NCBI RefSeq assembly: GCF_000317225.1
Contig: NZ_AJLL01000090.1
Coordinates: 1 to 64,000, forward strand
Direction of reading: 5' to 3'
DNA length: 64,000 bases
From: Fischerella thermalis PCC 7521
GTDB taxonomy: Bacteria; Cyanobacteriota; Cyanobacteriia; Cyanobacteriales; Nostocaceae
Shown here: positions 42,168 through 56,181 of the stretch, in pieces
Position numbering within the stretch: position 1 is the first letter of the stretch
Layout: every line of letters starts with the position of its first letter
Notes under the pieces: generated by a model
The model's input: only the letters and a program-made list of their open reading frames with translations
Told to the model about the DNA's origin: nothing
Database searches by the model: none
Made by a program: the position numbers and the translations under genes

Positions 42168-42191
42168 CTTTTGACTTTAGGGTATGGAAAG

Positions 42192-43421
42192 ATGTCTAAA
42201 ACTTGGCTAGAGCAACTACAGCAAATAACCATTGTGGTTGCAGATGCGAGGGATATCAGAGCAATTGAAAATTTGAAGCCGCAAGATGCTATAACTAATC
42301 CTGCTTTGATTACTGCTGCTGCTCAAATGCCTGAATACAAAGATATATTTCACCAAACTTTGTTGCAAGCAAAGCAAGACGCAGGTGCAGGAGCGACAAT
42401 TGATCAGATTGTGTCTCTGGCAGTGGATCGTTTGCTTGTGTGGTTTGGACAGAAAATTCTCAAAACAATCACAGGTCGAATATCAACACAAGTTGATGCA
42501 CGGTTGTGCTATGATACGGAAGCAATTATTGCCAAAGCGCGTTATCTTGTTTCTCTGTACGAAGCAAATAATATTTCCAGAGAAAGAATTTTAATGAAAA
42601 TAGCCTCTACCTGGGAGGGCATTCGTGCTGCTGAGGTTCTAGAAAAAGAAGGGATTCATTGTCATTTAAATTTACTATTTGGTATTCATCAAGCGATCGC
42701 CTGTGCGGAAGCTGGTGTGACTTTAGTTTCTACTTTGGTGGGGCGAATTGGAGATTGGTTCAAAAAAGAATCGGGACGTGAATTTTATCCAGCCACTAGA
42801 GATCCGGGAGTCTTATCAATCAGCCAATTCTATAACTACTATAAAAAATTTGGCTATCAAACCCAAATCATGGTGGCTGGCTTTCGTAACATTGACCAAA
42901 TTGCAGAGTTAGCAGGTTGTGACTTACTAGCAATTTCACCTGTGCTGCTGAAAAAATTGCAATCCACAACAGGAGAATTACCGCGTCAACTTGTTCCCGC
43001 CCATGCAGCCGAAGCTCATTTCAGAAAAATACATATTGATAAATACACTTTTTACAATATGCATGAAGCCGATCGCATGGCATACCAAAAACTAGAAGAG
43101 GGAATTGTTGGTATGTCCAAAACACTGGTTGCTCTGGAACAACTTTTAGCGCAGTGGTTGGAATGTTTGGAAAACAAGTATATAAATAGCTGTAGTTGTC
43201 TCAGTTTGGGAAATATCTTTCGAGTTTACGACTTTGACGGTGATGGCTTCATCAGCCGTGAAGAGTGGACAGGAATCGATGCAGTATTTGATGCTCTTGA
43301 TGTAAACCATGATGGGATCATCACTCCTGAAGAAATGGCAGGTGGATTAGGAGCAGCCTTTCACTTGTCATTCAATTCCCTTGGGTTCGCTAACAAAAGT
43401 TATGAGATGAAAAATTTATAG
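42192..43421 (+). CDS. tal: Transaldolase fused to a C-terminal EF-hand pair
   Basis: A 409-residue protein from this ATG (a TTG at 42171 would add seven residues; numbers below use that longer form). The transaldolase barrel (about 10-335) exchanges a dihydroxyacetone unit between sedoheptulose-7-P and glyceraldehyde-3-P. It has ITNPALI near 41, the Schiff-base Lys 143 in LMKIASTWEG and SISQFYNYYKKFGY. The last 70 residues hold two EF-hands: DFDGDGFISREE (354-365) and DVNHDGIITPEE (377-388), each with Asp/Asn at positions 1, 3 and 5 and Glu at 12. Calcium may therefore regulate the enzyme. It is 10 bp upstream of a phosphatase gene, with ackA following. Confidence 0.9.
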   Translation: MSKTWLEQLQQITIVVADARDIRAIENLKPQDAITNPALITAAAQMPEYKDIFHQTLLQAKQDAGAGATIDQIVSLAVDRLLVWFGQKILKTITGRISTQVDARLCYDTEAIIAKARYLVSLYEANNISRERILMKIASTWEGIRAAEVLEKEGIHCHLNLLFGIHQAIACAEAGVTLVSTLVGRIGDWFKKESGREFYPATRDPGVLSISQFYNYYKKFGYQTQIMVAGFRNIDQIAELAGCDLLAISPVLLKKLQSTTGELPRQLVPAHAAEAHFRKIHIDKYTFYNMHEADRMAYQKLEEGIVGMSKTLVALEQLLAQWLECLENKYINSCSCLSLGNIFRVYDFDGDGFISREEWTGIDAVFDALDVNHDGIITPEEMAGGLGAAFHLSFNSLGFANKSYEMKNL

Positions 43422-45377: not shown

Positions 45378-45879
45378 TAGTTAGTGGTTTGTCGTTAGTG
45401 GTTAATAGTTGGTTGTTACTCCTGCCGTTAAGTCAGGGCTGGCAAAGAAAGGTGTACGATTTGCGATCGCTTTCACGTTTATAGCAAATGTTGTCGTGTT
45501 AATAAACAACTCTGCGTTCAAAAAGATTACGACTTTACGCAAAACTGTACTAAGACACCAAGCATTTTTAAGACATTTATAGAAAAATCTCACAACACTT
45601 ACCTCACCCCATCCTATCGGACACCCCTCTCCGATCTCGCGGAGAGGGGCGGGGGTGAGGTTTTTTATTGGAACTACCTTGATTCAATACAAATTTATGC
45701 AAACTTCTACTAAGTTTTGCAATTTGGAAACAATCAGAACAAACAAATTGCTAAACTTTTTTGATTAAAAACCAAGTTATAACTATGGCTATTGCTGTAA
45801 ATCGAAAATTCACGGCTGTCCTACGTAGTAACTAACTAATAACTCATAACCGACAACTGATAACAGCGTGGGAATTAGT
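45378..45879. other. 502-bp gap before the dynamin-like gene
   Basis: After heptamer repeats (45378-45418) and a G/C-rich hairpin (45601-45666) there is AT-rich sequence. No gene was recognised. The promoter of the three-gene unit starting at 45880 probably lies in 45667-45870. Confidence 0.45.
45601..45666 (+). terminator. Large GC-rich hairpin followed by T6
   Basis: CCTCACCCC and CCCCTCTCCG on the left pair with CGGAGAGGGG and GGGGTGAGG on the right, with an unpaired bulge, then TTTTTT. It is an intrinsic-terminator-like structure 224 bp after ackA, and resembles repeats seen in many cyanobacterial genomes. Confidence 0.7.
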
Positions 45880-48435
45880 ATGAAAAGTGACATGGCGATC
45901 GCACAACTAAGGCAGTACAAAGAATATGGGGAATCCGTTCTCCAAAGCCTGGAGTTAGTATCACAAAATCCACCTCCCCAGGAAAGCTGGTTTCCTAATA
46001 GTATCCATGAAAACATTCAAAGGTTAAAAGCATCTGCACAAAGGGTAGTAGAAATTGCTTCTTCACCTGTGAAAATAGGCGTCATGGGTGAATTCAGTAG
46101 TGGCAAAACTTTATTAATTGGAAGTCTCATTGGCTACGCCGATGCTTTACCTGTCAGTGAAACCCCTACCACTGGCAACGTTACCGCAATTCATTTGCGT
46201 CAGCAACCAGACTTACAAACAACACAAATTGGTAAGTACACCGTTCATTATCTCTCAGACGAGGGTGTGAAAGAGTGTCTGCGCTTTATGCTACAGGAAG
46301 TTGAAGTCCGAGCCAAAGCAGCTGAGTTATCCTTGGAATTGCTGGCTAGTCTCAAAAACTTGCACCCCACCAAAATTGTGGATAGCAACGGAATTTTGAG
46401 ATGGTGTGAACAAGCTTGGAATCAGACGCAAAGTTTAGAACTGCGATCGCTACTGCGCGAGTTAGTAGTGTATATGCGTACCTACAACGCTTACGGTAAA
46501 TATATTGGCGGTAAAAGCTACGAAATCGATCATACTACTGCCAAAAAAGGGTTGAGACTGGCTGAACCGCCGATGAATATCTTAGAACTCAGCTTTGATC
46601 AACTACCAGCACCTCCCCAACCTTGGGCAAATTTTGCTCAACCATCAGCCGTAGACTTACACAAAAGCTTTTCTTTGATTCGCCGCATTGATGTCACCGT
46701 CGAAGTATGCAAAGAAATTTGGGATTTATCTGCACTCCAGGGAACAAATGAATTTGTCTTGTTAGACTTTCCTGGTTTGGGTTCAGCCGACTCTGGCGTA
46801 CGAGATACCTTTTTGTCACTGCGCGAACTTACAGATGTGCAAACTCTGCTGCTGCTACTCAACGGTAGATATCCTGGTGGTGCGATCGCTTCCAAAATTC
46901 GCACAATGTTGGAACGCGACAAAGGACAAGACTTAAGAGATAGAATTATTGTTGGTGTCGGACGCTTCAATCAACTTCCCCTTACCCAGAGTGACGAACG
47001 CGCCCTTGATGAACTCATAGACGAACCATTACTTTCCGAAGCAAATATATTAGAAAGCCTGGGCATTCTCCAACTTACCATTGCCAGTGCCAGCAACTTA
47101 ACCACAGAGAAAAAAAATATAGTTCTACTATCCCAGCTCCACGGTTTAGCCAAACTTGCCGAACTTTCCTCCCTCATCCAAGTTTCATCCCCAGAGTTTT
47201 TGCCAGAATTAGACATACCCAACAAACTTTCAGAAGTCGAATTGCGGGAAAAATGGCAGCAACTAAGTAAAAAGCTACCACCATCCAGCACCCTGCACAA
47301 ACAACTGAGTGACTTTGCAGAAGACGGTGGAATTAGTAGATTGCGATCGCTACTCAAAGAACACGTAGCACAACACGGCTTAAAACAACTTGTCGAAGAT
47401 ACCCAAAGAACCGTCAAAGCACTGCAAAAAGAACAAGATAACCTCAAAATCCTCCTCGAACAACTTCCCACCTATATCCCCGTCGAAGAAAACCCAAAAT
47501 TTATCGAACTGCGCCACGGAATAGAAAACCTAGTAACAATTTACCGACAATTTCAAGAAGAACTAGAAAAACAACCAATACTAAAAAACCGCGACGGAGT
47601 CGCCGTGAGTGATGTGGTCAAAGACGAATTAACAAATAAAATCTTCTTTGAATGGAGCGAATGGACACTACTATTCGATCGCACCAAAAACGGAACAATT
47701 TCCCTCACCAAAGCCGACAGCATTTTTGGTGACGAAGAAGTAGAAGACACCATCCCCACCAAAAGCGATGATTTCCACTCCGCCTTCGTCCAAACCATTC
47801 AAGAAATGCAAACCTTTGCTCACGATCGCACCACCGAAGCAGTAACCGACTTTTTCAAAAAACTATCCATCGAAGTCGCCGACGAACGTACCACAGTCAA
47901 TTCTGTCCTGTCACCAGACATCGAACAGTACATTCAAAACAACTTTGGCAAAAATCAACTCCGCTTATTTCGTAACCTTTTGCGCGCCGTTGATCCCATC
48001 AACAAATGGCAAAAGCTCATTATTGAACACAGTGGATTAGCCACCAATCATCATACCATCAACGCCGACACCTTATTTCCCCTAGCGCGCCAAGATGAAA
48101 AACACCCCAACGGACAAATCTTCGACTGGAGTCCCGATAAAAAATATCCGACTCCTCCCAGACCATTCAATCATCAAATAGCCGTTTTACGACTGCGGGA
48201 CGAAATCACCGCCAGCGCAGGCTTACACCTAGTGCAATACGTCAGTCAACTAACCAAACAAGTAAAATTTTCCTTTTCTCGGGCCCTCAAAGAAATCGTA
48301 GATAGTCTACAAGAACTATTAAAAACCAAACACGAACCCTTACTTCGATATATCGCCGACACAGACAAAGATAAATCTACATCCATTCCCCCTTGGTTAG
48401 AAACCCTTTCTCAAGTAGCGACGATTAGGGATTAA
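45880..48435 (+). CDS. Dynamin-like large GTPase (first gene of a three-gene module)
   Basis: An 851-residue protein from this ATG (a GTG at 45868 adds four residues; numbering uses the longer form). A dynamin-type G domain occupies about 65-420: P-loop GEFSSGKT (74-81), switch I Thr in ETPTTGN (98-104) and G3 LLDFPGLGSAD (298-308). The G4 site is unusual: IVGVGRFNQLP (361-371) has no TKxD/NKxD. A roughly 130-residue helical insert (about 135-265) separates G2 from G3. Long helical segments (about 480-850) could form a stalk, but no membrane segment is evident. Followed 99 bp later by the Hsp70-like gene; the arrangement recalls SrfC-SrfB pairs. The function is not known. Confidence 0.7.
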   Translation: MKSDMAIAQLRQYKEYGESVLQSLELVSQNPPPQESWFPNSIHENIQRLKASAQRVVEIASSPVKIGVMGEFSSGKTLLIGSLIGYADALPVSETPTTGNVTAIHLRQQPDLQTTQIGKYTVHYLSDEGVKECLRFMLQEVEVRAKAAELSLELLASLKNLHPTKIVDSNGILRWCEQAWNQTQSLELRSLLRELVVYMRTYNAYGKYIGGKSYEIDHTTAKKGLRLAEPPMNILELSFDQLPAPPQPWANFAQPSAVDLHKSFSLIRRIDVTVEVCKEIWDLSALQGTNEFVLLDFPGLGSADSGVRDTFLSLRELTDVQTLLLLLNGRYPGGAIASKIRTMLERDKGQDLRDRIIVGVGRFNQLPLTQSDERALDELIDEPLLSEANILESLGILQLTIASASNLTTEKKNIVLLSQLHGLAKLAELSSLIQVSSPEFLPELDIPNKLSEVELREKWQQLSKKLPPSSTLHKQLSDFAEDGGISRLRSLLKEHVAQHGLKQLVEDTQRTVKALQKEQDNLKILLEQLPTYIPVEENPKFIELRHGIENLVTIYRQFQEELEKQPILKNRDGVAVSDVVKDELTNKIFFEWSEWTLLFDRTKNGTISLTKADSIFGDEEVEDTIPTKSDDFHSAFVQTIQEMQTFAHDRTTEAVTDFFKKLSIEVADERTTVNSVLSPDIEQYIQNNFGKNQLRLFRNLLRAVDPINKWQKLIIEHSGLATNHHTINADTLFPLARQDEKHPNGQIFDWSPDKKYPTPPRPFNHQIAVLRLRDEITASAGLHLVQYVSQLTKQVKFSFSRALKEIVDSLQELLKTKHEPLLRYIADTDKDKSTSIPPWLETLSQVATIRD

Positions 48436-48476
48436 GTCGATCAAACTCTCACCTCTCCTCTCTGTGTACTCTGCGT

Positions 48477-48532
48477 CTCTGCGGTTAAATAAATAATTTA
48501 TCAACCGCAGAGACGCAGAGAACGCAGAGGAA
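48477..48532. repeat. Inverted CGCAGAGACGCAGAG repeat supplying an RBS
   Basis: Between the GTPase and Hsp70-like genes, GCGTCTCTGCGGTT is followed after a short AT-rich loop by AACCGCAGAGACGCAGAGAA and CGCAGAGG. The last AGAGG stands six bases before the ATG of the Hsp70-like gene, so the repeat itself provides its ribosome site. Confidence 0.8.
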
Positions 48533-48534
48533 AA

Positions 48535-51500
48535 ATGAAACAAAATTTTATATTTGAGAAAATGCCAATCAAAATAGAACTATTTAATCGTTACCAACTA
48601 CGTACCCATCCCAACGATTCATCTTTATTACTATTACCAGCAATTGAAATTAGACCAGTTCCTAATCCTCATTTTCCTCATATTTTCCGCATTAATATAT
48701 TTGTTACTGGTATCCCAGAAGACTTAGCAGCAGCGATGCAATCTGCTTATAAAAGTGTAAACTTTGGTACTAACAAGCTATTACAGCTTACTACTCCCCA
48801 GCGATTAAGGCAAAGTGATTGTCGCTGGAATGAACCATTACCAACAGGTGTCAATTGTAACTTACAAGTCACGATCGAGTATTTTGAATCCGGGGCGACG
48901 GGTGATCCTCTTTTATCTATTAGCAAACACATCAGCGCTGAATGCAATATCTGGACTTATCCCATCAAAGAATATTCAATCAAAAATCCACTCATGTCTT
49001 TTACAGATTCAGTCATCAACTCATTTAAAAGTACAACACCCCAAACTTTACTAGATGAGGAAGTAAAGTTAGATGTTGAGACAGTTAAGCAAGTTGAGCA
49101 ACAACCAGAAATTACTTATCCTGGTTGGTTTGCGATCGATTTTGGCACATCTAATTCCACAGTCACGCTTTACGATCCGAAGGTTATTGTGACACCCCAT
49201 AGTTTACCTAGTGAACAAGAGGTGAGGTTACGCGATCGCCTATCGACATGGTTAACTCAACGTCCCGTGGATAATATTGCTGGTGTGACTCAGGATGCGT
49301 GGGCGCAGGAATGGCAAAGATTTTTAATTGAAGTGAGTAAGAATTTCCAGGGTGAGAGTAATGTCAATTTACGCAATTTAAACGGAGAGCAATTTTTAGA
49401 AGCAATTCGCCAAATTGAAATTGCCCTGAGTAAGCGTTTACCTTGGTTTCGTCGGGCTGCTAGTAAACGTTTAAATCAAATTTATCATGAAGTGTTTCGG
49501 GTTCCACCTTTGGAATGGCAAAGTTTGATATCGGTAGAGTTAGATAAAGACCGACGTTTGAGTGAAATTGCTAGCGAGTTGGAAGTTGTTGGCTTAGAAC
49601 CGTTTTTACCAACCAACGATCCGCTAAAAGTCAAAGTTAGTTTGGGTGAACAAGCAAAACAACATCGTCTGGATGCAATTAGACAAGGCGAAGGAATAGA
49701 TAGCAGGTTTTTGCATTCACCAAAACGCTATTTTGGACAAGAACGTTCTTTTCAAATTACTCTCAATGGTAAAGAAGCTTCCATCCCTGTTAACAAGTTG
49801 TTGCAAGCGGCGTATGCGCAATTAATCGAGTTAACAGAAAAATATCGCCAGCGTTCCGGTAAGTGTTCCCAGGGTAAATTTTATCGCACGGTGGTAACTT
49901 ACCCTACGATCGCTTCACCTTTTGTCCGGCGGGAAATTGAACAGTTGGTAAAACAGCTAGATATCGAAGACGTGCAAATGGCTTATGACGAAGCTGTTTC
50001 GGTAGCGATATTTTTCCTGTGGCGAGAATTTGGTGGCGATTTAAATTTAGGAATCGAATCTTTCAAGACTCGCTGTCGCCGGGATGGGGACAAGTGGTGG
50101 CAAAATGTCATGGTGTTGGATATTGGCGGTGGTACTACCGACTTAGCCTTAATTCGTCTTTCCCTAGAAGAAATCAACCCCTTTGAACCAGGAGAAGACC
50201 GAGGCGACGGCGGACGCTACTATAAACTTACACCGAAGTTACTTGGTTCCTCTGGACATCTGCAACTGGGCGGCGAACTCATAACCCTGCGCCTATTCTT
50301 ATTGTTAAAAGCAGCGATCGCCGACTGTTTACTGACTGCCATTGTAGACGAAACCCTACCCAGAGACATCTTAAAAGTCCAACCAGAAGAACTAAGCGAT
50401 CGCTTCCTGCAAAACGGAAAATTCCAACCAGGTTCCCTCTTAGCTTGTGTCGATAACGAAGTCCGCGAAGGCGAAGCCTACAAAGAAGCACTCAACGACG
50501 CCGAAAAAGTCCTACCTACCCGGTGGAAAAACGCCCCATCCCGCGCCCAAACATTCTACACCCTTTGGGAACACGCCGAAGCAGCCAAACTCACCTTCGG
50601 ACAGAAACACCAAACCCTCGATACACCAGTATTTATCCTCGATGGGCAAAAAATCTCCGAACTCCTACTACACAACGATATTACCTTACCTACCAGCACC
50701 AGCGATCGCCTCAGCGTCACCCTCACCGTCGAACAATTTGAAAAAGCAGTCGCACCCGTAGTTCGGGAAGCCGTCGGTATCGCCCAAGGATTAATCGAAA
50801 ACGCCTTTAAAAACCAATCCCTCAACCCTGGTAACTCCCCCGAAACAGTCGATTGGCTCATCCTCTCCGGGAAAACCTGCAACTTAGAAATCGTCGAACG
50901 CGAACTCTACCGCGTCTTCAGCAAATCCGACTACTTCCTTTGGAACGAAGAACGCGTCACCTTTGAACCAGAATACACCAAACTCGCCACATCCGCCGGC
51001 GCTTGCTTCGCCGAAAAACTCCGCCAACTCAGCTTCTCCCCCCAACAAGCCAAAGACTTACTCAAAAAAGGCGCCAACCAACTATACATAGACGTCAAAA
51101 ACCTGTTTTACTTTCTTCCCTGTTCCTTCGTCCGCGAAGTCATCGGCGGTAGTCCCGATCCCATCTTCCACGCCGGACAAGAACTATATCAACTGCAAGC
51201 CACAGATGCGATCGCCAAATATCGCAGTCGCTGGATGGGGATGCAATTAACCAACAACATCAGGCGTCAAGACTTCGAGAACATGAAACTGCAACTTTGG
51301 GGTAGCTACAACGGCGACATCCTGATGAAAAAATTAGGCATGAACGAAGAAGACTTCAAAAACCACATTCAAGTTCAATTTGAAATAAACCAAAAACTAG
51401 ACATAGATCTATTATTATCCCGAGGCAAACCCCATTATCTCATCCCCGTCAATATACCTTGCCTTGATGCAGCCCAAGCGATCGGTACACAAACAGTAAT

Positions 51501-51978
51501 TTCTGATCAAGGCGAAGTCGTTTGTGACATCGCCGTCAACGTCGCCGAATCAGCCAACGTCTTCAAAACCGATGCTCACACAGTACTCTTTTCCAGCAAT
51601 CAAAACCAAGACCTACACACCTTCCGCTACAACGAAGCCGACACCCAAATCCAAGGACTAGGCTTAATCGCAGAATTACCCCCTTTCCCCGCCAGTGGTA
51701 AACACACATTTTACTTCCAATTTCGTCACCCAGAATCCAACAAATGGGAACTCATCGGTGAACTTCCCCAACCAGAAATTCAATCAGAATATCCTTGTAA
51801 ATATTACGTTTCCCTCAACAAACAAGGTATCCTGCGCATCCACCCCTTTGAAGTACCATACTGGACATCAACAAACCCCGAATGTCTGAAAATAGAGGGA
51901 TGTGTTTATCGAGATTCCCTCCAAGCCCAGTCTAACAACGTCGAGACAGAACGCGATCCATTTTGCGGATTGCATTAA
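48535..51978 (+). CDS. Giant Hsp70/actin-fold ATPase (second gene of the module)
   Basis: An 1147-residue protein. About 190 unrecognised N-terminal residues precede an Hsp70-like ATPase core: phosphate-1 motif WFAIDFGTSNSTVTL (198-212), phosphate-2 VLDIGGGTTDLALI (527-540) and the adenosine-binding DWLILSGKTCNLEIV (773-787). The lobes are widened by inserts of more than 100 residues, and the C-terminal 300 residues do not resemble the DnaK substrate-binding domain. SrfB of enterobacteria is a protein of comparable size with this fold. Codon use shifts to C-ending Asn, Asp, Phe and Lys-rich blocks in the second half (after about 50300). It is expected to act with the GTPase upstream and the protein downstream; the role is unknown. 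Confidence 0.75.
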   Translation: MKQNFIFEKMPIKIELFNRYQLRTHPNDSSLLLLPAIEIRPVPNPHFPHIFRINIFVTGIPEDLAAAMQSAYKSVNFGTNKLLQLTTPQRLRQSDCRWNEPLPTGVNCNLQVTIEYFESGATGDPLLSISKHISAECNIWTYPIKEYSIKNPLMSFTDSVINSFKSTTPQTLLDEEVKLDVETVKQVEQQPEITYPGWFAIDFGTSNSTVTLYDPKVIVTPHSLPSEQEVRLRDRLSTWLTQRPVDNIAGVTQDAWAQEWQRFLIEVSKNFQGESNVNLRNLNGEQFLEAIRQIEIALSKRLPWFRRAASKRLNQIYHEVFRVPPLEWQSLISVELDKDRRLSEIASELEVVGLEPFLPTNDPLKVKVSLGEQAKQHRLDAIRQGEGIDSRFLHSPKRYFGQERSFQITLNGKEASIPVNKLLQAAYAQLIELTEKYRQRSGKCSQGKFYRTVVTYPTIASPFVRREIEQLVKQLDIEDVQMAYDEAVSVAIFFLWREFGGDLNLGIESFKTRCRRDGDKWWQNVMVLDIGGGTTDLALIRLSLEEINPFEPGEDRGDGGRYYKLTPKLLGSSGHLQLGGELITLRLFLLLKAAIADCLLTAIVDETLPRDILKVQPEELSDRFLQNGKFQPGSLLACVDNEVREGEAYKEALNDAEKVLPTRWKNAPSRAQTFYTLWEHAEAAKLTFGQKHQTLDTPVFILDGQKISELLLHNDITLPTSTSDRLSVTLTVEQFEKAVAPVVREAVGIAQGLIENAFKNQSLNPGNSPETVDWLILSGKTCNLEIVERELYRVFSKSDYFLWNEERVTFEPEYTKLATSAGACFAEKLRQLSFSPQQAKDLLKKGANQLYIDVKNLFYFLPCSFVREVIGGSPDPIFHAGQELYQLQATDAIAKYRSRWMGMQLTNNIRRQDFENMKLQLWGSYNGDILMKKLGMNEEDFKNHIQVQFEINQKLDIDLLLSRGKPHYLIPVNIPCLDAAQAIGTQTVISDQGEVVCDIAVNVAESANVFKTDAHTVLFSSNQNQDLHTFRYNEADTQIQGLGLIAELPPFPASGKHTFYFQFRHPESNKWELIGELPQPEIQSEYPCKYYVSLNKQGILRIHPFEVPYWTSTNPECLKIEGCVYRDSLQAQSNNVETERDPFCGLH

Positions 51979-51999
51979 CTCTACATCTTGGCGTTCTTG

Positions 52000-52051
52000 G
52001 CGCCTTGGCGGTTTATATAAATAACCGCCAAGACGCCAAGACGCCAAGGAA
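52000..52051. repeat. Inverted CGCCAAGACGCCAAG repeat between module genes 2 and 3
   Basis: TTGGCGTTCTTGGCGCCTTG and GCGGTTTATATAAATAACCGC form a hairpin with a right arm of tandem CGCCAAGA units. It is built like the repeat at 48477-48532, from a different 8-base unit. The same unit is found inside the 3' end of xseA (28787-28812). Confidence 0.8.
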
Positions 52052-52101
52052 GAAAGAAGAGAGGGATTTTGCGTTAGTTTTGCAGAAATAATGGAGAGAA
52101 C

Positions 52102-53241
52102 ATGCAGCACCTCAGCAAGTTATTGGAAATAGAGGATTCACAATTAGCTTGGGTACTGCGGTTAGGTTTACATGGACTGCGGACTCAATTACAAGAAGCA
52201 CTTAAGGAAGCAAAAACAGATTCCGGTCAAAGTTCTTGTCAGGAACTTGTACGCGAATTAGATCAACTTCTGCAACCACAAAAATTAGAGGTTATTACCC
52301 CCCCCACTCCCCCCACCTGGGAGGAGGTATTTGAACCAATTCACTTGGAATTATCAGGGGAACAGAAACTGAAACACATTGCTGATGCTTTGTTGGCTGA
52401 TCAAGAATTGTTGCAACATATTGGTGCATACAAGTTTCACAGCAACAATGATGTTGATTTGTGGAATGAAATTCAACGCTTGCTGCTACGGGTTCCGGAA
52501 AAACTTGCTCATACTTGGCGGGAATGTATTTTGGCGGAGGCGAGTCAGTTAGGCGCTTTGGAAGATAAGCTGGCTGTACAACAGTTTGGTTTTAGTCGGA
52601 ATGAGCATGTTTACTCTGGTTTGCAGGGGAGTGTTTATGCAACTGGATTGTGTCTATCAGATCAGGTCGGTTTTGATCCCCGATTGCAAGTAGAAACAAG
52701 GGGCGGGGAGTTAGATTTATTGGCGGGAATTGTATCTGTTTGTTTAAAGTTTATCGATATAGATACGTGTTTACACCATGCTCTAAAAAGTGTAGATCGT
52801 TTTGGTGTCAGGTCTTTAAATTCGGAGTCGGAAAAGTCTAAGTATGTTACGGCACTTCTCGACCGATTTCAGCGTGTCCTTATCACTACCGATGCTGACC
52901 CAGCGATCGCACTCCGTGCCAGACTAGATTTAGATGAGGCAATTCATTCTTTGGTATATTTGCCACCGTGCGATCGCTTTTCTTGGTGGGGGAAACTCCA
53001 ACAAGAAGCGCGGCGCACTCTTGATAGTGTGGTGGAAAAAGCGCGTGATGCAGGTTATCAAGTGCAAATACGGCCATTGTGGGGAACCTACGCCGATATC
53101 TACACTTGGTCAAAAGACGATTTACAACTAAATATTGGTGGTGTACCAGGAGAAGTTTCCGCCTGTCTACGGGTGTGTGCCAAGATCAACGATGAGGTAA
53201 TTCCAGGACGTGTTTTGTTCCGTTCTTCTTCGGAGGCGTAA
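52102..53241 (+). CDS. Protein of unknown function (third gene of the module)
   Basis: A 379-residue soluble protein I do not recognise. The N-terminal 70 residues are amphipathic helix (LLEIEDSQLAWVLRLGLHGL), then a Pro-rich linker (about 73-83, ITPPTPPTWEE). The middle has a conserved-looking VYSGLQGSVYATGLCLSDQVGFDP and LDLLAGIVSVCLKF. The C-terminal part (about 290-379) ends with VQIRPLWGTYADIY and GEVSACLRVCAKINDEVIPG. There is no signal peptide or membrane helix. It lies 123 bp after the Hsp70-like gene and shares its direction, so probably its transcript. By position it would be the third partner, as SrfA is in srfABC, but I see no sequence match to claim that. Confidence 0.6.
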   Translation: MQHLSKLLEIEDSQLAWVLRLGLHGLRTQLQEALKEAKTDSGQSSCQELVRELDQLLQPQKLEVITPPTPPTWEEVFEPIHLELSGEQKLKHIADALLADQELLQHIGAYKFHSNNDVDLWNEIQRLLLRVPEKLAHTWRECILAEASQLGALEDKLAVQQFGFSRNEHVYSGLQGSVYATGLCLSDQVGFDPRLQVETRGGELDLLAGIVSVCLKFIDIDTCLHHALKSVDRFGVRSLNSESEKSKYVTALLDRFQRVLITTDADPAIALRARLDLDEAIHSLVYLPPCDRFSWWGKLQQEARRTLDSVVEKARDAGYQVQIRPLWGTYADIYTWSKDDLQLNIGGVPGEVSACLRVCAKINDEVIPGRVLFRSSSEA

Positions 53242-54339: not shown

Positions 54340-56181
54340 CTAAATCAACGCCATCACCCCAGCAGGGGAACCGGAACCATCTCTTAATCTCAAAATTCCA
54401 ATCACGAGAGTTGCACCCTTGGGTGGTAGTTGATCTAAATTGGTGAGATTTTCCAAGACAATACGCGGTTTTGCTAATACAAGATTGTTGATTGTAAAAT
54501 TAGTGTCTTGTCCAGAGTCTATGCCGTGAGTATCAATTCCAACTCCGGTAATGTGACGCTCATTCAATAGAAATTCAGCTGCATCGCTGCCAAATCCAGG
54601 AAAATGCATGTTTCCTTGAGCATCTTGATTTATGAAGGCAGTGCGATCGCACCATTTTTCTTGCCAACCTGTGTACAATAATACTAAATTTCCAAGGGGA
54701 ATTTCTCCGTGTTGCTTCTCCCACAACAGAATATCAGCAACAGTGAGGCTATAGTCCGGGTTAATTGCTACTTGCTGTTGTATGTTAATTACCACCGCAG
54801 GTAAAACTAGTGATTCTGCGGCGTATTGATCAATGGCAGCACCAGAATTATAAAAACTCTTTGGGGCATTAACATGGGTGGCGCTGTGTTCACCTAAGGA
54901 AAAGCGTCGGAGATAATACCCATCTGTTTCTATTTCTGCGACGGTCTCAAACTCTACCGCAGGATCACCCCGCCATTGGGGAATGTTGGTATCTATAACA
55001 TGACTCAGATGGATGACTCGTGAATAAGTAATTGTTTGTATTTGAGAAGATAAATCACTATTTTCTCCCCGATCTCCCCACCTCCTACTCAACTTCTCCA
55101 GTGTCGCCTCCATCACAGCGCTTGTCTGCCCAGTGACGGTAAATACCAGTGCTTCTCTGTAAACGCGCTGTGCAGGATGATGTAAATAATTAGCAGCACC
55201 ACTAGAAACGGTGACGGCTGCGTGAGCAATGCGTGTTGCTAAATCAATTGCCCAGGCTCGTAGTTGTAGTTTTTGTGACAGCTGGGCGTGGGTATTTTTC
55301 TGTAGCTGACGAATGGCAGTGCGACAGTGGTTTAATTCTTGTTGCAAAGCGGTCAAAGCCGCCGCGATCGCAGGCAATGATTTTGTCTGTAGGGCGGATT
55401 CGATAATATCTAAACCAGCGAAGGCGCAACCTGTAGCTAAAAAGGTGGCACGAAGGATGTTATTTTTGTCGTTTTCATGAATCCATCCGCCTGGTTTAAT
55501 GGAAACTACGCGCTCTTGAGGTAGAAAGTAGTTATTTAAGTTGGCTGTGACGGTATTGGTTGATGTCATTGCTGCTAGTTCAGCTGGGGAGGTAAATGTA
55601 ATCTTGCTTGTTGAGTTTTGGTAGGTGTCTTGAAAAGGAACTACGCCGAAAACAGCACGCCCATCGGGAAGGGTAGCAGCAACAATAAAATCATCAAACA
55701 TTCCCCAGCCTGTTACCCAAGGTACGATTCCATCTAATTGATACCCTCCTGGAACAAGTTTAGCTATTGTTAGCGGTTCACCTCCCCGCCTTAACTGCGA
55801 AAAGCCGACACCAATTAAAAGTTCACCTTTACCTATACGTGGTAAATACTCCTGCTTCAGAACAGAATTACTGCTAGCAACTAGCATTGCAGCAGCGCTT
55901 TGGTGTTGAGTTTGCAAAAAAGCTAAAGCACCAGAGTATCTTGCTACCAGTTCTTGAAAATCACTAAAGGTTTCTTCACTGATTTCCTTACCACCCCAAT
56001 TCTGGGGAACACGTAACGCCAGCAAGCCTAAATCTCTAAGTCCTTGCAGTGCGTGCATCAGCGCATCCGGGTTGCTGTCTATCTCGTTAGCTTTGACTGC
56101 AACTGAGTTGAGCAAGTAGGAATGGGCTATTTCTAAAACAGAATGGTTTTCCTTGGGTGACACTTGGCGATCGCAATTCAT
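54340..56181 (-). CDS. Fusion of an acyl-CoA dehydrogenase-like and a cyclase (KynB-like) domain
   Basis: A 613-residue protein. Residues 1-362 match an acyl-CoA dehydrogenase: N-terminal helices (LRDLGLLALRVPQNWGGKEI at 48-67), the middle beta domain (LLIGVGFSQLRRGG, 121-134), and a C-terminal helical bundle ending in YREALVFTVTGQTSAVMEAT (341-360). Residues 382-613 are a metal-dependent cyclase/formamidase domain (RVIHLSHVIDTNIPQWRGDP). The HxGTHxDxPxHF motif reads H432-S-A-T-H436-V-N438-A-P-K-S442-F. The Asp and last His metal ligands are therefore Asn and Ser, while Glu 577 (VLENL) remains. The linker (363-381) has repeat-like DNA. The substrate is unknown. Confidence 0.8.
   Translation of the reverse strand: MNCDRQVSPKENHSVLEIAHSYLLNSVAVKANEIDSNPDALMHALQGLRDLGLLALRVPQNWGGKEISEETFSDFQELVARYSGALAFLQTQHQSAAAMLVASSNSVLKQEYLPRIGKGELLIGVGFSQLRRGGEPLTIAKLVPGGYQLDGIVPWVTGWGMFDDFIVAATLPDGRAVFGVVPFQDTYQNSTSKITFTSPAELAAMTSTNTVTANLNNYFLPQERVVSIKPGGWIHENDKNNILRATFLATGCAFAGLDIIESALQTKSLPAIAAALTALQQELNHCRTAIRQLQKNTHAQLSQKLQLRAWAIDLATRIAHAAVTVSSGAANYLHHPAQRVYREALVFTVTGQTSAVMEATLEKLSRRWGDRGENSDLSSQIQTITYSRVIHLSHVIDTNIPQWRGDPAVEFETVAEIETDGYYLRRFSLGEHSATHVNAPKSFYNSGAAIDQYAAESLVLPAVVINIQQQVAINPDYSLTVADILLWEKQHGEIPLGNLVLLYTGWQEKWCDRTAFINQDAQGNMHFPGFGSDAAEFLLNERHITGVGIDTHGIDSGQDTNFTINNLVLAKPRIVLENLTNLDQLPPKGATLVIGILRLRDGSGSPAGVMALI

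Follow-up and report, generated by a model that had tools for sequence, protein, structure and literature searches.

What the SrfABC system of proteobacteria does is disputed; in Xenorhabdus a toxin role has been reported (PMC6950479). Its general plan, in which a giant Hsp70-like ATPase (SrfB, PF07520) is encoded with a P-loop protein and one further partner, is shared by a three-gene locus of Fischerella thermalis PCC 7521 that is the subject of this report. The locus lies in a stretch of 64,000 bp (contig NZ_AJLL01000090.1, positions 1 to 64,000; hereafter the window), where its genes all occupy the plus strand within 45880–53241, and it encodes a dynamin-type GTPase, a giant Hsp70-type ATPase and a protein of no recognised family, which we call T, H and P. 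As in SrfABC, the three are adjacent on one strand. The likeness to SrfABC had been raised in a first-pass annotation, and it holds for the gene plan and may hold for H, whose top Pfam match is SrfB; the other two proteins match no Srf model. The H score is borderline and covers only part of the model, no SrfC model is matched by 17 T proteins (E-values up to 5) or by three divergent ones (E-values up to 1), and P has no SrfA match (E-values up to 5) in Pfam, a database in which the presence of an SrfA model is itself uncertain. On these profile matches the locus is not filed here as SrfABC.

Other comparisons lie within the dynamins. A 2018 review describes a group of cyanobacterial dynamins, the 'chaperone clade', whose genes are followed by one for a protein with a DnaK domain (PMC5827413), and the T–H pair, likewise a dynamin-like gene followed by an Hsp70/DnaK-type gene in a cyanobacterium, may already have been noticed within it. 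There are three differences. First, nearly all of its cyanobacterial dynamin-like proteins (DLPs) carry the P-loop extension GKS/T-x-L/I-NALL/I, whereas T reads GKTLLIGSLIG and lacks the L/I-NALL/I extension. Second, the partners in the clade reportedly carry DnaK domains, but H is not called DnaK by Pfam. Third, a third gene is not mentioned there (PMC5827413). NosDLP/BDLP of Nostoc punctiforme and SynDLP of Synechocystis share with T a dynamin-superfamily GTPase domain but have other gene partners according to the same review (PMC5827413); PDB sequence and profile searches with T returned nothing of note and no chain of either protein. A weak likeness to LeoA of the LeoA/LeoBC (Eleos) dynamins, the sole PADLOC match of T (E 3e-5), is confined to about 60 residues of the P-loop region. 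We know of no Hsp70-like partner of LeoA/LeoBC.

Very probable published counterparts are alr1146–alr1148 of Anabaena sp. PCC 7120, which are adjacent, on the same strand, restricted to heterocyst formers, and begin with an 847-aa member listed as a Nostocales signature protein (PMC2823733, PMC4365693). The two tables list them, with no function assigned, as belonging to the Nostocales or to the heterocyst clade, and do not recognise a dynamin–Hsp70 module in them (PMC2823733, PMC4365693). Our literature search found no study of what the three genes do, alr1146–alr1148 appearing only as table entries. The earlier description of the system as a candidate for an undescribed one needs qualifying in that the genes very probably stand in two published tables and the T–H pair perhaps in the 2018 review.

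Conservation and co-inheritance of the three genes

T, H and P form one unit that is inherited together across nine families of a single cyanobacterial order. Searches were made in 194 genomes from across the phylum, 218 genomes of the window's family and 391 genomes of its order, with E-values calculated per genome. In the phylum-wide set each of the three proteins is found in the same 25 genomes, which are all of the listed members of the window's family, a group that we take to be the heterocyst formers as circumscribed by the Genome Taxonomy Database (GTDB); the two extra, marginal matches to T among the 194 are other dynamins in unrelated contexts. Within the family, whose named loci come from Fischerella, Calothrix, Trichormus and relatives of Nostoc, the module is nearly universal, with H in 212 and P in 210 of the 218 genomes. 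Only G217 and G366 have H without P, and both are poorly assembled: H runs off its contig in G217, and G366 is 84% complete.

The arrangement is as constant as the content. When the window and 100 further loci are compared, the order T-H-P on one strand is seen in 89 of the 101, the others being truncated by contig ends or having P elsewhere; in G174 and G051 P has been relocated far off, yet is retained. This conservation of order and strand, with co-occurrence in hundreds of genomes, does not arise by chance. The flanking genes vary by clade, and no fourth gene is conserved across genera. The window nonetheless shares a PAS kinase gene, trpD and the next gene with the Nostoc clade, a sign that the locus has been inherited from a common ancestor. 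In 38 Nostoc-clade loci (including L088, L147 and L168) a gene for a D12-class adenine methylase (cluster c0) lies near P, beside trpD; it is not present in the other clades.

The genes also decay or vanish together. All three are absent from G224, G232, G357, G358 and G369 (there is one marginal dynamin match in G224), and the 4.9 Mb genome G228 holds broken remnants of all three, with T-H at 3.775 Mb and P at 0.335 Mb, so that they are unlinked but have co-decayed. G228, whose two remnants (L212 and L213) lie on contig C1 of a near-closed assembly and whose genus-mates have genomes of 7.8–7.9 Mb, is probably a reduced symbiont. G357 (3.2 Mb in 90 contigs) is the only one of eight genomes tested without a full GOGAT, and fits Richelia intracellularis HH01, a diatom symbiont with a genome of 3.24 Mb and no GOGAT (PMC8969518); G358 is of the same genus.

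Across the order, 88 of the 391 genomes carry H, and 18 of these lie outside the window's family, in eight other families. The same order and strand are kept in 16 of the 18, the remaining two being an eroded copy and a copy at a contig edge, so that the arrangement is intact at identities of only about 35–43%. Named carriers outside the family are Oscillatoria sp. PCC 10802, O. princeps, a Symploca sp. and Argonema antarcticum, all of them non-heterocystous. In a tree of H, a clade of Fischerella, Scytonema, Calothrix and Rivularia stands apart from one of Nostoc and Anabaena; with midpoint rooting, Oscillatoria, Symploca and Argonema fall on the Nostoc/Anabaena side, two of them on long branches and with unsure placement. 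No copy of the three genes was found on a plasmid, and T was not found in viral contigs. A second T-H-P set is present in some very large genomes, among them those of one genus with 10–12 Mb (G244–G247 and G250; see also loci L240 and L241); in G246 and G284 the second locus was read and contains all three genes, T being partial in G246.

The first-pass annotation had proposed a possible stand-alone machine and had named a lack of conserved linkage across cyanobacteria, or independent occurrence of the third gene and the GTPase in most genomes, as the findings that would count against it. Neither is seen: the linkage is conserved in most of the loci surveyed, and independent occurrence clearly fails as a description of these genomes.

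Sequence features of T, H and P

Gene T (45880–48435, plus strand) encodes 851 aa from an ATG codon, or 855 aa if an alternative GTG at 45868 is used. The protein scores 34.4 bits with the Dynamin_N model of Pfam (cut-off 27), which is also hit by all 17 relatives scanned, and has the dynamin-superfamily motifs G1 (GEFSSGKT, aa 70), G2 (T98) and G3 (DFPGLG, aa 296), with about 195 aa between G2 and G3. Residues K76, T98, D296, P298 and G299 are invariant, down to relatives of 34–35% identity.

Gene H (48535–51978, plus strand) encodes an SrfB-like protein of 1147 aa. Its best Pfam match, SrfB, scores 22.6 bits against a cut-off of 27.1 over residues 477–545, with the Hsp70 and MreB models lower. 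SrfB is likewise the top match in 17 of 17 members scanned and in the most divergent ones, but the scores are only 20–28 bits, exceeding the cut-off in 4 of 25 genomes, and the alignment spans about 70–130 of 992 model positions, all within the connect-1 to phosphate-2 segment. The Pfam HSP70 model gives only a short phosphate-2 match, which falls under the cut-off wherever its full score was displayed. When divergent H members were combined into a profile, DnaK chains of the PDB were matched weakly (E 0.04–0.1), and the DnaK and MreB matches of the other PDB profile searches are also weak. The core (about aa 196–842, 49120–51060), recognised by its invariant columns and the weak DnaK match, contains DFGTSNS (202), SPKRYFG (395–401), YDEAV (484–488), DIGGGTTD (529–536), LILSGK (775–780) and TSAGAC (819–824), and of these DFGTSN (202–207), SPKRY-FG, DEA (485–487), DIGGGTTD and LILSG (775–779) are invariant or nearly so. 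By an assignment read from the alignment, the phosphate-1, KR-x-x-G, connect-1, phosphate-2 and adenosine motifs of Hsp70 are all represented, the SPKRYFG loop being read as the counterpart of KRLIG in DnaK. No DnaK substrate-binding domain is detectable in Pfam scans of H members.

On either side of the core, H has a predicted beta-rich N-terminal domain (about aa 9–142, 48559–48960; local AlphaFold2 pLDDT about 70–80) and a C-terminal beta-rich region (about aa 976–1130, 51460–51924) that has no Pfam match and is modelled with low confidence, as is the protein as a whole (mean pLDDT 52). Nostoc sensu stricto and a few other groups lack the N-terminal domain or have it as a separate piece. 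At Nostoc sensu stricto loci (L086, L145, L146, L148, L153, L158 and others) an insertion of 1–1.5 kb between T and H bears an ORF of cluster c11 that is nuclease- or transposase-like by eye, and H there is without the N-terminal domain, a loss of about 150 aa. A gasdermin match of this domain (E 0.6) is weak and was treated as chance.

Gene P (52102–53241, plus strand) encodes a protein of 379 aa that matches no model in Pfam, NCBIfam or PADLOC; 19 relatives and three divergent ones match no Pfam family at a meaningful E-value, and PDB profile searches gave nothing of note. Its N-terminal half is helical and its C-terminal part is strongly conserved, with the motifs SWWGKLQ, G-YADI, SKDDLQL-GG-PGEV-CLR and PGRV. 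The AlphaFold2 model is of low confidence (mean pLDDT 65).

These results bear out what had been claimed for the products, namely a dynamin-type GTPase with GEFSSGKT and DFPGLG motifs, an Hsp70/actin-fold ATPase without a DnaK substrate domain and a third protein that could not be placed. With their catalytic motifs invariant, T and H can firmly be described as two active-looking, nucleotide-driven proteins.

Probable correspondence with alr1146–alr1148 and the response to nitrogen step-down

T, H and P are very probably the counterparts of alr1146–alr1148, judging from length (T relatives of the Anabaena type are about 846–854 aa), adjacency, strand and distribution. Related Nostoc loci have the order T-H-P-x-dam-trpD-x-carA, which agrees with the numbering in PCC 7120, where trpD is alr1153 and carA is alr1155.

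This correspondence would give the locus a link to nitrogen starvation. According to a published table, with data attributed to Flaherty et al. 2011, alr1146, alr1147 and alr1148 are induced up to 9-, 2.5- and 9-fold after nitrogen step-down, the probable counterparts of T and P by 5–9 fold at 12 h and 21 h (PMC4365693). In the literature searched, no dynamin was found to be implicated in the reorganisation of heterocyst membranes or in the building of the heterocyst envelope.

A second link comes from the genomes without the module. In heterocysts of Richelia intracellularis nothing surrounds the outer membrane as an additional envelope, and the internal membranes often run throughout the cell rather than being polar (PMC8969518). 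The absence of the module in Richelia correlates with the missing extra envelope and the altered membrane pattern, a correlation that is weak and at most suggestive.

A strict role in nitrogen fixation was considered and is ruled out by the presence of nifH in module-less genomes, together with two carriers that have no nifH. In several genomes nifH is split at about codon 133, with 4.5–9 kb between the halves where these are on the same contig (G357:C76:10473–20438; G393:C1:4236572–4241900; G224:C52 and C379; G387:C250). These interruptions are probably excision elements, that of Richelia included.

Organisation of the locus and its neighbours

The coordinates, lengths and motifs obtained by ORF calling agree with those first given for three co-directional genes of 851, 1147 and 379 aa. 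Both intergenic spacers contain long palindromes. The T–H spacer (48436–48534, plus strand) has a predicted hairpin with a folding energy of −50.2 kcal/mol (z −10.7), and the H–P spacer (51979–52101, plus strand) has a second with −53.6 kcal/mol (z −7.2). The core of the first palindrome is an exact 18-mer with four copies in the genome, and is thus a dispersed repeat of this genome, which could uncouple the transcription of T, H and P.

As read from the sequence, the upstream neighbours are genes for a transaldolase, a phosphatase and acetate kinase, and the downstream neighbours are an acyl-CoA-dehydrogenase-like ORF, a PAS histidine kinase gene and trpD. None of the neighbours in the window is a chaperone or division gene, as had been remarked at first. 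The transaldolase-like ORF (42171–43421) has a C-terminal extension that reads as an EF-hand (calcium-binding), and the 613-aa ORF at 54340–56181 joins an acyl-CoA-dehydrogenase-like half to a cyclase-like half in an unusual fusion.

Possible functions

We propose that T, H and P together make up a single machine for membrane or envelope remodelling, which would be used heavily in differentiating heterocysts; we give this reading a probability of roughly one in three. T would bind nucleotide, oligomerise and act on membranes by analogy with its dynamin relatives, while H would serve as an ATP-driven clamp of the Hsp70 type whose client is T, or an assembly of T, rather than unfolded protein in general, and which would load that assembly or take it apart. 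P may be an adaptor that joins T and H or supplies the address. With lower confidence, the machine in heterocyst formers would be mostly active in differentiation after nitrogen step-down, its task being the reorganisation of thylakoid membranes or the building of the envelope; it would be an aid to free-living life and not a requirement for nitrogen fixation. The membrane role is suggested because T belongs to the dynamin superfamily, and the heterocyst role because of the induction data, the near-universality in heterocyst formers and the Richelia correlation. The fullest form of the proposal, in which an Hsp70-type ATPase is dedicated to a bacterial dynamin through a third protein and drives membrane or envelope reorganisation in differentiating heterocysts, is more doubtful.

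Several observations weigh against this reading. First, with regard to the proteins, the G4 motif of T is not canonical, reading RFNQ or RFDQ at aa 362, and conserved so, in place of N/T-K-x-D, so that specificity for GTP is likely rather than assured; no paddle is recognisable in T, and there is no clear transmembrane segment in T, H or P. Foldseek searches with the AlphaFold2 models of P and H, which are poor, returned no PDB match below E 0.01. Second, with regard to regulation, the identification with alr1146–alr1148 comes from gene features and not from sequence comparison, the counterpart of H is induced less than those of T and P, and no NtcA or TCCGGA site is conserved upstream (of 88 upstream regions, 23 contain GTAN8TAC where shuffled sequences give 14.4, and its position varies). 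Third, Richelia still makes heterocysts, with honeycomb membranes in one specimen (PMC8969518), and has lost many other genes. Finally, nifH is kept, whole or interrupted, in the module-less genomes, and two non-heterocystous carriers are without it, from which it follows that the core function cannot be heterocyst-specific. In view of the distribution of nifH and the non-heterocystous carriers, we lean towards a machine with a general task at membranes or the envelope, on which heterocyst formers would draw heavily in differentiation.

Two other explanations are possible, at lower odds than the remodelling machine. In one, the module is a quality-control or assembly machine peculiar to this lineage: H would be the working chaperone for a large protein assembly such as septal junctions, the envelope or secretion complexes, T only its GTP-dependent switch, and membranes would not be the target. 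The retention of the Hsp70 catalytic set in H and the want of a membrane-anchoring segment in T are as this explanation would have them, but no J-domain or exchange-factor gene is recurrently linked to the locus, H has no detectable DnaK substrate-binding domain, and T is of dynamin type rather than a small switch. The other, which we hold about equally tentative, is a general role in stress, motility or envelope repair of filamentous cells, the induction on step-down being part of a wider response that does not bear specially on heterocysts. It accounts for the patchy distribution elsewhere in the order (18 carriers in eight other families, from a set of 391 genomes), for the two carriers without nifH and for loss from obligate symbionts that still form heterocysts; near-universality in the heterocyst-forming family alone is less easily accommodated, as is the 5–9 fold induction of the probable T and P counterparts during step-down (PMC4365693).

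Anti-phage defence, with the dynamin acting on phage-induced membrane damage as proposed for dynamins of the LeoA/Eleos type, is unlikely. The LeoA match is the only PADLOC match of T, and a defence system would also suit the patchiness in other families and the occasional second or eroded copy. Within the family, however, the module is near-universal and mostly single-copy in the 218 genomes, with a tree that broadly follows taxonomy; such inheritance argues against defence, as do the lack of plasmid copies, the lack of T in viral contigs, and the ordinary neighbours, which in other families serve mainly metabolism and photosynthesis and include no recurrent defence gene. That the locus is a cyanobacterial branch of the SrfABC family sharing whatever SrfABC does is the least probable of all, its three-gene plan and the SrfB match of every H being set against the confinement of that match to one segment and the lack of any SrfC model for T or SrfA model for P.

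To our knowledge, regulation of a dynamin by an Hsp70-type ATPase has not been described in bacteria, and no dynamin has been tied to heterocyst differentiation. If true, the remodelling machine would represent a new form of bacterial dynamin regulation and the first dynamin linked to heterocyst differentiation. The module is also a tractable and harmless system in which to study SrfB-like ATPases. Whatever the function proves to be, the evidence for co-inheritance is strong, and T-H-P is a concrete and testable candidate that is near-universal in heterocyst formers and apparently induced at the right time.

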